The notes under the pieces were generated by a model. That model saw only the letters and a list, made by a program, of their open reading frames with translations. It was not told the DNA's origin and ran no database searches. Below are positions 14,592-29,151 of a stretch of 37,556 nt of DNA, in pieces. The first letter of the stretch is position 1. Each line of letters begins with the position of its first letter. This DNA comes from a virus. The stretch covers positions 1 through 37,556 of IMG/VR virus record IMGVR_UViG_3300046001_000987; one strand, 5' to 3'. The position numbers were made by a program, and so were the translations under genes.

Positions 14592-16115
14592 CTACGCTCC
14601 CATCCATGATGCGTTGACTCCATTGCCTTGCGCGTTCACGCGGCGGCTTGGTTCAACATATTGTCGATGTGCTACAGGAAACGCAAATGTAACAGCAATT
14701 GCGTCGGCTGCGTCAGGAGACGCCAACCCACGCGACTTCATGTCTTTTTTGCTTTCCAAGAAGATCGTCCCTTTCGAGTCAGGCTTCATCATAGGCGAAA
14801 TCAAGTCCGTTTTCAAGAACCTGTCGTTTGGAATCGCCGCCGTCTTCAGCCACTCCCGCATGTCGCCCCACATCTGCGCCCGCATGTTGCCGTACATGAT
14901 CGGGTTCTTCGCCTTATTTCCGAAGTTCACGCCCTTGATCTTGTACCGCTGCTCCTTCAACCGATCCACGATGCCAGCACCCAACCCACCTTCGTCGATC
15001 ACCGTGAGCGTTGGTTTAAATTCCTCAATCGCTTCAATCACGTGCCCGACCACCGTCATGGTGTCGTCGCCTCTGTGGCGCATGATCTTCACAATATCCC
15101 GACCTTGGCGCACCGCGATGACCGTGGCATCCGCTCCAAACCGTGCGGGGTCTACCCCGATCACGATTGGCGCTGACTGATCCTGATACTTATTACGTTT
15201 CATTGCGTCGTCCACGATGTCAGCCCCGATGAACTGGTCATCGCCCGCGTTGGGGAACTGACCGTACACCTCGACGTGCGCCTGCGCCGAGTCTGGCCCA
15301 TATTCCGCGATGATCCGCTCGTAGACCTGCTTGTCGGTGCCCTCGACCGTGCGGGCGTCCACCACTTTCGTGCGCCAGAACTCTCTTTTGCTGTTAAACG
15401 CCTCGTAAAAGTACCCCGTATTGCGACGCGGGTTGCTGAACGCCAGCCAGAAGCGATTTGGCGTGTTTTCTGTGAAAAAACCACCCGTCACCGCCCAAAT
15501 TGAGTCGTCAATACCACTGGCCTCGTCAAAAATCACCAAAACACCGTCGAAATTGTGCACACCAGCGTACGCGTCGGGGTTTTCCGCTGACCACAGCCTG
15601 CCTTCAACGCCCCAATATCTGGTGCCCTTCTTCAAATCCCGCTCCACCAACTCGGTCAGCCACTTGGCGGGCATTACCCGGGTGGCCGACACCTCAAACC
15701 AGTGGCTGTTGATGGCCATGGCCAGCCACTTGGTGATCTCGGCCCATGTGATTGAGCGTAGCTGGGATTCACTGTTGGCCGACACGATGGTCGTGGAGCC
15801 AATCCGCGTGGAGATCATCCAGATGACAAGCCATGACACTAAGGCCGACTTGCCAATACCACGGCCAGACGATATTGCCTCTTGCAGTACGTCAAAGTCC
15901 AGCTTGCCTTGGTTGAGTCGGATGTGTTCGGCGATGTCCAACAGCACCTCGCGCTGCCATTTGCGTGGGCCAGCGAAGTTTTCCAGTGGTGTACCTTTAA
16001 CTTGCCATGGAAACGCAAACATCACAAACGCCAGCGGGTTGTCCTTGATCTGGGGCGACCATAGCCGCGCCATCAATTCTGTTTCGTCTTCAGCGCTGTA
16101 TATGGTGTTCTGCAT
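14592..16115 (-). CDS. terL: Terminase large subunit (ATPase-nuclease)
   Basis: This 507-aa packaging motor has an ATPase domain with Walker A SSGRGIGKS (about 82-90) and Walker B VLVIFDEAS (about 192-200), and an RNase H-like nuclease domain with DPARFGADAT (D322), TVIDEGG (D374) and SPDAADAIA (D468/D471). P22 gp2 is 499 aa. It pumps DNA into the procapsid through the portal and cuts the concatemer. The start overlaps TerS by 26 nt. No truncation or missing catalytic acid is seen. Confidence 0.95.
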   Translation of the reverse strand: MQNTIYSAEDETELMARLWSPQIKDNPLAFVMFAFPWQVKGTPLENFAGPRKWQREVLLDIAEHIRLNQGKLDFDVLQEAISSGRGIGKSALVSWLVIWMISTRIGSTTIVSANSESQLRSITWAEITKWLAMAINSHWFEVSATRVMPAKWLTELVERDLKKGTRYWGVEGRLWSAENPDAYAGVHNFDGVLVIFDEASGIDDSIWAVTGGFFTENTPNRFWLAFSNPRRNTGYFYEAFNSKREFWRTKVVDARTVEGTDKQVYERIIAEYGPDSAQAHVEVYGQFPNAGDDQFIGADIVDDAMKRNKYQDQSAPIVIGVDPARFGADATVIAVRQGRDIVKIMRHRGDDTMTVVGHVIEAIEEFKPTLTVIDEGGLGAGIVDRLKEQRYKIKGVNFGNKAKNPIMYGNMRAQMWGDMREWLKTAAIPNDRFLKTDLISPMMKPDSKGTIFLESKKDMKSRGLASPDAADAIAVTFAFPVAHRQYVEPSRRVNAQGNGVNASWMGA

Positions 16116-16539
16116 TTACCTTGTGTTCCAGTGTTGGACTTGGTTCGTTGGCGATTACATCAATAACCCGTGACTCCGCTTGGCGCAACGCGCCGATGAT
16201 GCTGATGCGCTGATCGACATCAATGCTGATGGACTGCTTGGCCACCCAGCCGTGTGAGTGCTGGAGGATCGCCAGCGCCGCTTTGGCGTCGCCTTCCTTG
16301 GCTGCCTTGTGCAGGCAGGTGGACATCTCCAGTTCACCGTCGGCCTTGCCCTTAAGCGCCGCCATGTCTGCGATGGGGTCAAGCTCACACAGTTGCCGGT
16401 ATTCTGTTGGCAACATGCCGGAGGCCAGCGCCAATGCGTCGCCTTTGAGGCCGAGCTTGGCGGCTTCGTAGATTTTGTTTAACCGCGCTTCGGTCGCAAC
16501 GATCTTGCGCGGCTCAAATGGAAGGCTGTGGAACGTCAT
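16090..16539 (-). CDS. terS: Terminase small subunit (DNA recognition)
   Basis: A 149-aa helical protein immediately upstream of terL and overlapping it. The segment EARLNKIYEAAKLGLKGDALALASGMLPTEYRQLCELDP fits the N-terminal helix-turn-helix of small terminases, which recognise the pac site. The middle (ALKGKADGELEMSTCLHKAAKEGDAKAALAILQHSHGWVAKQ) forms the oligomerising core. It is the first gene of the leftward late operon and faces the non-coding hub, where its promoter and perhaps pac lie. No strong Shine-Dalgarno precedes the ATG. Confidence 0.88.
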   Translation of the reverse strand: MTFHSLPFEPRKIVATEARLNKIYEAAKLGLKGDALALASGMLPTEYRQLCELDPIADMAALKGKADGELEMSTCLHKAAKEGDAKAALAILQHSHGWVAKQSISIDVDQRISIIGALRQAESRVIDVIANEPSPTLEHKVNAEHHIQR

Positions 16540-16554
16540 GTGCGCGAGTGTAAA

Positions 16555-16572
16555 TCATGTGGGTCATGTGGG
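16555..16572. repeat. Two tandem copies of TCATGTGGG upstream of terS
   Basis: The 9-mer occurs head to tail at 16555-16563 and 16564-16572, next to an AT-rich inverted pair (CAATTTT at 16573-16579 and AAAATTG at 16590-16596). The location 16-33 bp upstream of the terS start suggests a regulatory or leader element for the late operon. The role is not established. Confidence 0.5.
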
Positions 16573-16652
16573 CAATTTTAAAAAATAAAAAAATTGTTCG
16601 TGAAACCTCCGTCACCGTATGGCCCAGGCCGTCGGCCCTACCCCCACCCCCT

Positions 16653-16853
16653 AAGTTAGTAAGCACTTACTTACAGCAGCTAAGTTAGTGAGCACTTACT
16701 TACAGCAGCTAAGTTAGTGTTTACTAACTTGTCAAATTTATATGTTAGTGCGTACTAACTTAAGCGAAGTGAGTGCTCACTAACTTAGCCTCGGGGTTGG
16801 TGTTAGTGGTCACTAACATGGCCATGTGGCCATATGTTAGTGGCCACTAACTT
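16653..16853. promoter_or_regulatory. Array of seven 20-bp palindromes (AAGTTAGT-N4-ACTAACTT)
   Basis: Copies lie at 16653-16672, 16682-16701, 16711-16730, 16742-16761, 16767-16786, 16800-16819 and 16834-16853. Each has two 8-bp inverted half-sites around a 4-bp centre. Copy 3 is perfect and the others carry one to four arm mismatches. Centre-to-centre spacing is 29, 29, 31, 25, 33 and 34 bp, and the first two lie in a 29-bp tandem direct repeat. The design fits sites for a dimeric helix-turn-helix regulator or an initiator (iterons), between divergent terS and early genes. The binding protein is unknown. Confidence 0.9.
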
Positions 16854-16860
16854 ACGTGCG

Positions 16861-17081
16861 TGTGGACATTGTGGACAATGTGGACAACTATTTTGCGATT
16901 GACAGTCCGTCGCTAAACGTGCGTACCAATGAAACCACATTCCACCATATGAAATATGGTATTTTTTTTTTGACCTTTAAAAACCCATTGTCCACATTGT
17001 CCACAATGCCCATTCAATCAGGCCGTGCATGGTTTTCTTGTGGACATCACCCACTATCCACATTTTGGGCACATGTCCACA
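16861..17081. other. Putative replication origin: eight DnaA-box-like 9-mers
   Basis: Copies of TGTGGACAA/TGTGGACAT lie in direct tandem at 16861-16869, 16870-16878 and 16879-16887. In opposite orientation, TTGTCCACA lies in tandem at 16988-16996 and 16997-17005. Further sites are TGTGGACAT (17039-17047), CTATCCACA (17054-17062) and ATGTCCACA (17073-17081). TTGTCCACA differs by one base from the E. coli DnaA box TTATCCACA and equals the actinobacterial form. Bases 16867-16887 and 16988-17008 are a perfect 21-bp inverted repeat. Between them lies a small hairpin (ACCATAT-GAA-ATATGGT, 16944-16960) and a run of ten T, a candidate unwinding element. No protein-coding gene is credible here. Confidence 0.75.
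16944..16971 (+). terminator. AT-rich hairpin with T-run inside the origin-like region
   Basis: ACCATAT, loop GAA, ATATGGT, one A, then ten T. It could act as a weak intrinsic terminator for rightward transcripts or as an easily melted element of the origin. The low stem GC content favours the second reading. Confidence 0.4.
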
Positions 17082-17158
17082 AAGTAGGGTAAACACCTAT
17101 AGATTTATGCAAGTGAATCCCTTACATTAATATCACTGGCCGCGATATTGCAGCCAGG

Positions 17159-17182
17159 CAATCAACTAAACGAAAGTAAGAC
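17159..17182 (+). repeat. Repeated translation leader, copy 1
   Basis: A 24-nt sequence containing AACTAAACGAAAGTAAG is placed directly before the ATG of the first early gene (ATG at 17184). An identical copy precedes the second gene (17419-17442), and a diverged copy (ATCAACTAATCGAAGGGTAA) precedes the third (ATG 18270). GAAAG or GAAGGG acts as the ribosome-binding site. Confidence 0.85.
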
Positions 17183-17183
17183 C

Positions 17184-18757: not shown

Positions 18758-18885
18758 AAACAATATTTATTCTTAGGACCGGCCAGCGCGTGGCCGTTGA
18801 TCGGTTTATGGCCGGACCGGCTTTGACGCGTGGCTATTGGTGGTGGCGGACCGGACACCGGACATGGTCCGAGGTGCCCGTATGA
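18754..18885 (+). CDS. Very small basic protein (43 aa)
   Basis: MKTIFILRTGQRVAVDRFMA, then GPALTRGYWWWRTGHRTWSEVPV. It starts in an ATGA overlap with the preceding stop and ends in an ATGA overlap with the next start, which is the main evidence that it is translated. Trp/Arg-rich C-terminal half. No family recognised. Confidence 0.6.
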   Translation: MKTIFILRTGQRVAVDRFMAGPALTRGYWWWRTGHRTWSEVPV

Positions 18886-19037
18886 CCTACTACAAAAGCA
18901 AAGCGGCCGCGCAAGCGCTGGCCGATGAATTGACCATGCAAGACCGCGACGCGTGGAGCTATGAGGTGCACGGGAGCCCGCGCGGGTTTTACGTGGTGGT
19001 TTTTGATGCTGACTTTCACTTTTTGGGGATCTTATGA
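18882..19037 (+). CDS. Small conserved-type phage protein (51 aa)
   Basis: MTYYKSKAAAQALADELTMQ, then DRDAWSYEVHGSPRGFYVVVFDADFHFLGIL: an N-terminal helix followed by three beta strands, a compact fold seen in many small phage proteins of unknown role. The ATG at 18882 (ATGA coupling) is preferred over an in-frame start 15 codons upstream. Confidence 0.7.
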   Translation: MTYYKSKAAAQALADELTMQDRDAWSYEVHGSPRGFYVVVFDADFHFLGIL

Positions 19038-19120
19038 CTAAACGACAATTTTTTGACGCGCTGGGCTTTGCGTTTTTTATCGCACTGCCTTTTGTTTTAT
19101 ATTTTTGGGAGCTGACATGA
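19034..19120 (+). CDS. Single-span membrane peptide (28 aa)
   Basis: MTKRQFFDALGFAFFIALPF followed by VLYFWELT: a positively charged start, about 17 hydrophobic residues and a short tail. ATGA overlaps at both ends place it in the coupled chain. It may be a small inner-membrane effector. The translation evidence is architectural only. Confidence 0.5.
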   Translation: MTKRQFFDALGFAFFIALPFVLYFWELT

Positions 19121-19401
19121 AAACTATCACATTGGGGAAAACCCGTTACACCGTGCGCGACGGCCGCGACGACATTATGGCCGCGCATGCAAAGTGCACC
19201 GGCAAGCATAAGGTTGTAAAGTCTAAAGGGGCCGAAAAACGGTTCTACCCTTTGTACTGGGCCGAGACGTCAACGGCCGATTATGTGGCCGCATATGAAA
19301 AGTTGAATTCTAAAATTATGCCTTGGGACTGGCAGCCACTGCGGGCCGAGCCCTGCCTGCTACCCGTGGGCGAAGATAGCATGTGGGAGGTGGCCGAATG
19401 A
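19117..19401 (+). CDS. Early protein, unknown (94 aa)
   Basis: Starts MKTITLGKTRYTVRDGRDDIMAAHAKCTGKHKVVKSKGAEKRF, a basic N-terminal half with two or three beta strands, then YPLYWAETSTADYVAAYEKLNSK and an acidic end. The ATG at 19117 is chosen for its ATGA overlap; a TTG four codons upstream is possible. No recognised family. Confidence 0.7.
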   Translation: MKTITLGKTRYTVRDGRDDIMAAHAKCTGKHKVVKSKGAEKRFYPLYWAETSTADYVAAYEKLNSKIMPWDWQPLRAEPCLLPVGEDSMWEVAE

Positions 19402-19616
19402 ACCCGATTTTTGCTCAGGCGCTGGCCCCTTGGACGCCGCCACCCACACCCACACCGACTGACCTTGTGACACGGGCGCTGATTATGGGGCTCACTGCGC
19501 CGGACGCCGCACGGGCGCAAGAATGCGCCGATCTGGCCGAGCACTGGGCGCAAGGGCTCACGGAGGCCGAGGTTGAAGCCTGCAAAGCGGAGGCGATGCA
19601 ATATGAACCTAAGTGA
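19398..19616 (+). CDS. Early protein, unknown (72 aa)
   Basis: MNPIFAQALAPWTPPPTPTPTDLVTRALIMGLTAPDAARAQECADLAEHWAQGLTEAEVEACKAEAMQYEPK: a proline-rich linker followed by an acidic helical hairpin. ATGA-coupled to the upstream gene and overlapping the next gene by 14 nt. Probably a protein-interaction module (inference). Confidence 0.68.
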   Translation: MNPIFAQALAPWTPPPTPTPTDLVTRALIMGLTAPDAARAQECADLAEHWAQGLTEAEVEACKAEAMQYEPK

Positions 19617-29000: not shown

Positions 29001-29151
29001 AGCAATCAGAACATTCTTTGGCAAACGACGCGAGCGCGGTAGGACGGTCATGCAAGAAGGTCTTGTATGGCGGTGCAGTAACTGCTACCTTATTTTTCTA
29101 ACCAAATCAGCCGGAGATGAGCACAAATGCCAAGACCTAAAAGTGAATTGA
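28993..29151 (+). CDS. Small zinc-ribbon-like protein, GTG start (52 aa)
   Basis: The frame begins MLEAIRTFFGKRRERGRTVM and contains CSNCYLIFLTKSAGDEHKC, a Cx2C...HxC pattern expected of a small zinc ribbon. GTG at 28993 has AGGAG 7 nt upstream and overlaps the preceding gene by 8 nt. Likely a small nucleic-acid- or protein-binding factor. Confidence 0.72.
   Translation: MLEAIRTFFGKRRERGRTVMQEGLVWRCSNCYLIFLTKSAGDEHKCQDLKVN

Follow-up and report, generated by a model that had tools for sequence, protein, structure and literature searches.

Nucleoid Occlusion and SlmA Binding Sites

SlmA is a bacterial protein that prevents division across the chromosome (nucleoid occlusion), and in Escherichia coli its sites crowd the chromosome origin. 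Small phage proteins that stop host division are also known. E. coli SlmA, a TetR-family FtsZ antagonist, binds GTGAGTACTCAC (PMC3116907), and two SlmA dimers occupy each of the 20-bp SlmA sites (SBSs) SBScons (GTAAGTGAGCGCTCACTTAC) and SBS17 (GTTAGTGACCATTTACTTAC) (PMC4423959). In E. coli with functional SlmA, a multicopy plasmid carrying two tandem SBSs blocks division, with lethal effect, as a result of the dispersal of SlmA-SBS complexes through the cell (PMC3573117; PMC4117426), with the caveat that SlmA was present at about four times its native level in the published experiments.

The window analyzed here is the whole of a 37,556-base record from an uncultured freshwater virus, to which no host is attached. 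The seven-site array that it contains is a real, conserved and widespread element, and comparison with published sites indicates that its partner is very probably SlmA, the TetR-family nucleoid-occlusion protein of the host.

A Seven-Site Array in the Non-Coding Hub

The gene content of the window comprises a podovirus-type particle (portal, coat, and P22-like head-closure and terminase families) together with a replication module. A non-coding hub (16540–17183; no strand assigned), which holds both the array and a family of period-9 repeats, separates the divergent terminase (minus strand) and early (plus strand) modules. It is the sole real non-coding gap of more than 130 bp in the gene list, a nominal second gap (18758–19382) having short ORFs inside. 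On the minus strand lie terS (16090–16539), assigned from position and alignment as the gene for a 149-aa terminase small subunit, and the gene called as that of the large subunit, terL (14592–16115).

The array spans 16653–16853 and consists of seven copies of AAGTTAGT-N4-ACTAACTT, each with at most three mismatches, that start at 16653, 16682, 16711, 16742, 16767, 16800, and 16834 (steps of 29, 29, 31, 25, 33, and 34 bp) with no helical phase in their spacings. The initial annotation had reported seven 20-bp inverted-repeat sites in the gap between the divergent modules, and this description is confirmed: 0.11 sites (sd 0.31) are expected by chance, none of 100 dinucleotide shuffles reached seven, and no further match with up to three mismatches occurs outside the array in the 37,556-base window. 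When the window is scored with a matrix derived from other phage groups, the array sites take the top seven ranks (21.9–29.0 bits), the next-best place scoring 1.5 bits once overlapping registers of the array sites are set aside.

Perfect arms are found only in site 3 (AAGTTAGTGTTTACTAACTT, 16711–16730; like the other SlmA-type sites, without an assigned strand), the remaining six carrying one to three mismatches. Sites 1 (AAGTTAGTAAGCACTTACTT, 16653–16672) and 2 (AAGTTAGTGAGCACTTACTT, 16682–16701) each allow a second reading, as a 20-bp palindrome in two registers, GTNAGTNANNNNTNACTNAC, at 16655–16674 and 16684–16703, respectively, and the site 2 version (GTTAGTGAGCACTTACTTAC) is identical to SBScons at 17 of 20 letters. 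Site 5 (AAGTGAGTGCTCACTAACTT, 16767–16786) has the best score in the window and includes GTGAGTGCTCAC, which is one letter off the E. coli 12-mer, and site 6 (GTGTTAGTGGTCACTAACAT, 16800–16819) reads GTTAGTGACCACTAAC on the reverse strand, the published SBS17 starting with GTTAGTGACCA. Sites 4 (ATGTTAGTGCGTACTAACTT, 16742–16761) and 7 (ATGTTAGTGGCCACTAACTT, 16834–16853) are pattern matches. The 4-bp centre, earlier described as variable, is not free: across relatives it takes the form R-N-N-Y with GAGC/GCTC and GAGT/ACTC enriched.

The second repeat family of the hub is made up of period-9 GTGGACATT units at 16860–16890 and 16985–17085, with inverted copies at 16540–16580. Relatives keep its layout with different letters (GTGGGCAAT in L141, GTTGGCTAT in L155, TGCCAACAC in tandem in L165, GCCGACATA in L173, and GGGTCATTT in L184), and it is a candidate fast-evolving iteron-like element, apparently a better one than the palindromes, whose suggested role as iterons found no support. 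Between the array and terS are a promoter-like TTCACG-18-TAAAAT (16575–16604, minus strand), a consensus match of a kind found at chance-level frequency, and a G-rich block, GGGTAGGGCCGACGGCC...GGAGG, with a T-run after it (16577–16651, minus strand), which is strongly conserved in relatives with or without the array. Two relatives have a tRNA-Met (CAU) gene between array and terS (L134:2505–2579 and L152:7481–7555).

Conservation and Distribution of the Array

Eighty relatives were obtained from an IMG/VR search with the large terminase of the window. Close relatives keep five to eight sites upstream of terS, at steps of 23–47 bp with variable spacers, so that the loss of site number and spacing named by the initial annotation as counting against its reading was not seen, and other relatives, some of them as close by terL, have an absent or degenerate array. 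This pattern marks the array as an optional module; in the array-less close relatives L133, L146, and L149, other DNA fills its position. The two-register reading, with registers 4 bp apart, is frequent in relatives (e.g., GTAAGTGAGTACTCACTAAC in L014 and L125).

The SlmA-type 20-mer GTNAGTGAGYRCTCACTNAC occurs in at least 120 stretches in IMG/VR, compared with one for the mirror pattern, two for same-arm palindromes with an AC/GT centre and none for those with an AA/TT centre, a specificity for the SlmA centre AG-YR-CT over other palindromes with the same arms. Sites are clustered (at least two per 400 bp) in 76 of the 114 matched loci, 49 of which have at least three. Gene content divides the array loci into eight groups or more, and the large terminases of these groups belong to different families, mostly with no more than 37% identity, the exception being the window and L079 (68%). 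Wherever a clustered locus shows terL (130 of 130), the array is found upstream of this gene, at distances of about 0.1 to 2.6 kb, and the site is likewise upstream in all 22 single-site loci with a terL (17 within 3 kb). This constant place suggests a function tied to it; position alone is no proof of a cis role because the window has no real non-coding gap longer than 130 bp besides the hub. No array and no convincing match were found among cultured phages in the collection searched, and plasmids likewise gave nothing convincing. Judged from these sequence comparisons, the earlier reading missed the identity of the motif, which is that of SlmA, and the presence of such arrays in many unrelated phages.

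Palindromes of the form GTTAGT-YATR-ACTAAC are numerous and scattered in L020, L064, L076, L095, L109, L097, and L013, which have other gene content. In these palindromes the arms are as in the array and the centre is different; the highest number per locus is found in L109 (27 sites in 7.8 kb). The rumen-type phages (L020, L064, L076, L095, and L109; GTTAGT-N4-ACTAAC) form separate gene-content groups with the centre YATR and were set aside as an unlike phenomenon.

Identity of the Binding Partner

Five tests bear on the identity of the partner; they are unequal in strength, and matrix scoring and the IMG/VR 20-mer counts weigh most. The array sequence matches the published SlmA consensus, and in composition the free centre of the phage sites agrees with that of SlmA sites (GAGC/GCTC and GAGT/ACTC, i.e., AG-YR-CT). 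For scoring, the phage-trained matrix was built from arrays found by a pattern made without SlmA. Trained only on phages of the window family, it assigns SBScons 24.6, SBS17 13.2, and SBS12 7.5 bits (for the three published sites, p ≤ 1e-4 with random 30-mers as background and p ≤ 1e-3 with random palindromes), and the matrix from all arrays assigns them 24, 13, and 8 bits (p ≤ 2e-4 against random 30-mers). The control operators, nine from other TetR-family proteins plus matS, scored −15 to −45 with the phage matrix. A gene for SlmA or a homologue was found in none of 288 viral loci. The initial annotation had recognized a layout of the TetR-type dimeric kind with a partner that the phage does not encode, and had listed a host regulator as one option; it was right on these points, the best-supported partner of the array being host SlmA, a TetR-family protein.

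Chromosomal Sites and the Host

Relatives of the window were binned with Rhodoferax, other Burkholderiales and Betaproteobacteria, and one Methylococcaceae metagenome-assembled genome (MAG); binning is weak evidence of host, and on it the host order is likely to be Burkholderiales. An SlmA gene is present in 86 of 120 genomes of this order, to which several of the binned relatives were assigned, and in five of eight tested MAGs with relatives, and the recognition helix of Burkholderiales SlmA (VSEAALYRHF) is as in E. coli.

Origin bias was tested on slmA+ chromosomes only, one complete (G082, a 1.9-Mb Burkholderiales chromosome) and one partial (G038, 800 kb). In G082, the top 25 matches to the phage-trained matrix average 271 kb from the origin, compared with 480 ± 60 kb for scrambled palindromic matrices, none of 200 being as close, and G038 has a like trend toward the origin (p 0.02–0.16). 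In G082, weak matches are in total as numerous as those of the mirror control, and the motif is distinguished only by its best matches and by where they lie, so that the G082 result rests on position.

The sequence GTTAGTRNNYACTAAC is found in seven of 82 slmA+ and three of 272 slmA- genomes (p = 0.002), the mirror pattern having no association, and counts of the 20-mer relative to its mirror are 12:8 in slmA+ and 26:51 in slmA- genomes (p = 0.03). In the family of G471 the 20-mer occurs 77 times and the mirror 31 times. About a dozen genomes of that family share a recurrent GTTAGTNAGYGTTGACTTAC site, possibly one orthologous SlmA site or promoter. The search for the motif in related phages and genomes that had been proposed earlier yielded many phage arrays and no overall excess of exact-arm matches in 120 Burkholderiales chromosomes, most of which have none. 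The generic SBS core (a 14-mer) was found in four of 274 genomes of the class, with no excess over the mirror pattern, and the 16-mer gave no clear general excess in 48 slmA+ genomes.

In G220 and G340, which make up a two-genome slmA+ family, exact phage-type sites lie between radC and coaBC (G220:C103:4056 and G340:C133:3738; L223 and L226), near slmA, before comF (bioB-comF), and before rimO, with none at a TetR gene. Such scattered exact sites, in one family, are supportive.

Proposed Function and Alternative Explanations

It is proposed that the array is a cluster of host SlmA sites through which replicating phage DNA probably activates SlmA off the nucleoid and blocks Z-rings. Each two-register site would bind two SlmA dimers, as in E. 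coli; replication of the phage would multiply the arrays, drawing host SlmA off the nucleoid and switching it on cell-wide, and SBS-bound SlmA would break FtsZ polymers, leaving the host with no Z-ring during phage maturation. A phage genome with about seven sites and many replicas should at least match the plasmid effect. Division arrest would then be the most likely main effect of the array, and if SlmA is the partner, the case that the block is also the selected function is evenly balanced. Against it, the close relatives L133, L146, and L149 live without the array, and the constant place of the array ahead of terL may reflect a role in cis. We lean slightly toward the broader view that many unrelated phages have convergently gained SlmA-site arrays in the hub before the terminase genes, as a DNA-encoded takeover of nucleoid occlusion that needs no phage protein or as a copy-number clock that couples late genes and host division arrest to phage genome number.

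The main rival is late-operon control, which, given SlmA as partner, is a tentative second choice; the two roles can both be true. That bound SlmA instead acts in cis, regulating either the terminase/late operon or the early promoter that diverges from it, seems rather unlikely. One version is a copy-number timer, in which a fixed SlmA pool is titrated by multiplying genomes until the late promoter is released or fired. Such control would fit the place of the array upstream of terL in every clustered (130/130) and single-site (22/22) locus ahead of terminases of mostly ≤37% identity, the activation of the Vibrio cholerae promoter Pchb by SlmA through a site that lies 167 bp ahead of the start (PMC5519180), and the promoter-like match between array and terS. 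However, matches like this one are as frequent as chance predicts, the lack of any other real non-coding gap of more than 130 bp may dictate the position, the distance to terL varies (about 0.1 to 2.6 kb) with site spacings out of helical phase, and E. coli SBSs placed upstream of a reporter promoter left lacZ expression unchanged (PMC3573117). A pure decoy, soaking up SlmA and so removing nucleoid occlusion or another SlmA function, would be numerically feasible, given about 500 SlmA dimers per E. coli nucleoid (PMC3573117) and, by our own arithmetic with an assumed copy number, seven sites in 100 genome copies, which exceed the chromosomal sites many-fold; it is nonetheless very unlikely, as SBS binding activates SlmA and does not silence it (PMC3573117; PMC4117426).

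As to the partner, another host TetR-family regulator with a near-identical operator would account for the absence of exact arm matches from most Burkholderiales chromosomes, and a similar operator, GTNAGTGAACGTTCACTNAC, does recur in genomes without slmA. This operator occurs 0 times in IMG/VR, however, the phages share the AG-YR-CT centre of SlmA sites, and the origin-biased matches in G082 are unexpected for an ordinary regulon, which makes such a regulator quite unlikely. A GTNAGTGAACGTTYACTNAC-type palindrome recurring in the slmA-less genomes G235, G247, G281, G351, and G391 is probably another TetR-family operator. Binding by a phage protein, whether TerS at a pac/cos-like site, a small regulator, or an initiator with the palindromes as iterons, is barely plausible. 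The array adjoins terS, and the presence of an array partly correlates with terS identity, but the same motif precedes unrelated terminases, and the helix-turn-helix region of TerS is identical or nearly so in array-less L133, L146, and L149; the array and the DNA-binding domain of TerS do not change together, and TerS at a pac site was therefore rejected. Small phage regulators at 19603, 29127, and 17184 were also rejected, having no link to array presence. Two of these had been put forward in the initial annotation: the 73-aa protein at 19603 is 77–83% conserved in array-less L135, L141, and L146 and absent from array-bearing L117, L123, L124, and L140, and the 51-aa protein at 29127 has one other match only (L046, 54%). 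In the stretches searched, no phage regulator accompanies every array, and no early protein near the hub, small ones included, is common to all array-bearing relatives.

If the division block by host SlmA is true, the phage DNA itself would carry an address label that switches on the division brake of the host, of which no report was found in the literature searched, and phage genome copy number would have a route of coupling to host division or late-gene timing. In addition, the arrays are a source of hundreds of naturally occurring candidate SlmA sites in uncultured lineages, and they offer a means of predicting whether the host of a phage bears slmA.

Comparison with Known Systems

The phage sites share with the chromosomal SBSs of E. 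coli and V. cholerae the 20-bp palindrome, the AG-YR-CT centre, the two overlapping dimer registers 4 bp apart and, for the best chromosomal matches in G082, the origin-proximal bias; in chromosomes each SBS stands alone and the set is spread over megabases, whereas five to eight phage sites are packed into about 200 bp. V. cholerae Pchb, with an SBS upstream of a promoter, provides the model for a cis role, although it has one site and another factor acts there, compared with the five to eight sites of the phages. Phage-encoded division inhibitors such as lambda Kil block host division during phage growth, which is also the outcome proposed for the array, but they are proteins that act on FtsZ/ZipA (PMC3961180), whereas the array, if the proposal is true, would be a DNA element acting via a host protein. 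The synthetic plasmids pUC-2xSBS and p2SBSK resemble the phage genome in being multicopy DNA with tandem SBSs, for which SlmA pull-off and a Z-ring block are predicted; they are laboratory constructs used with raised SlmA, whereas the array of the phage occurs naturally, with a larger number of sites, and is amplified by replication.
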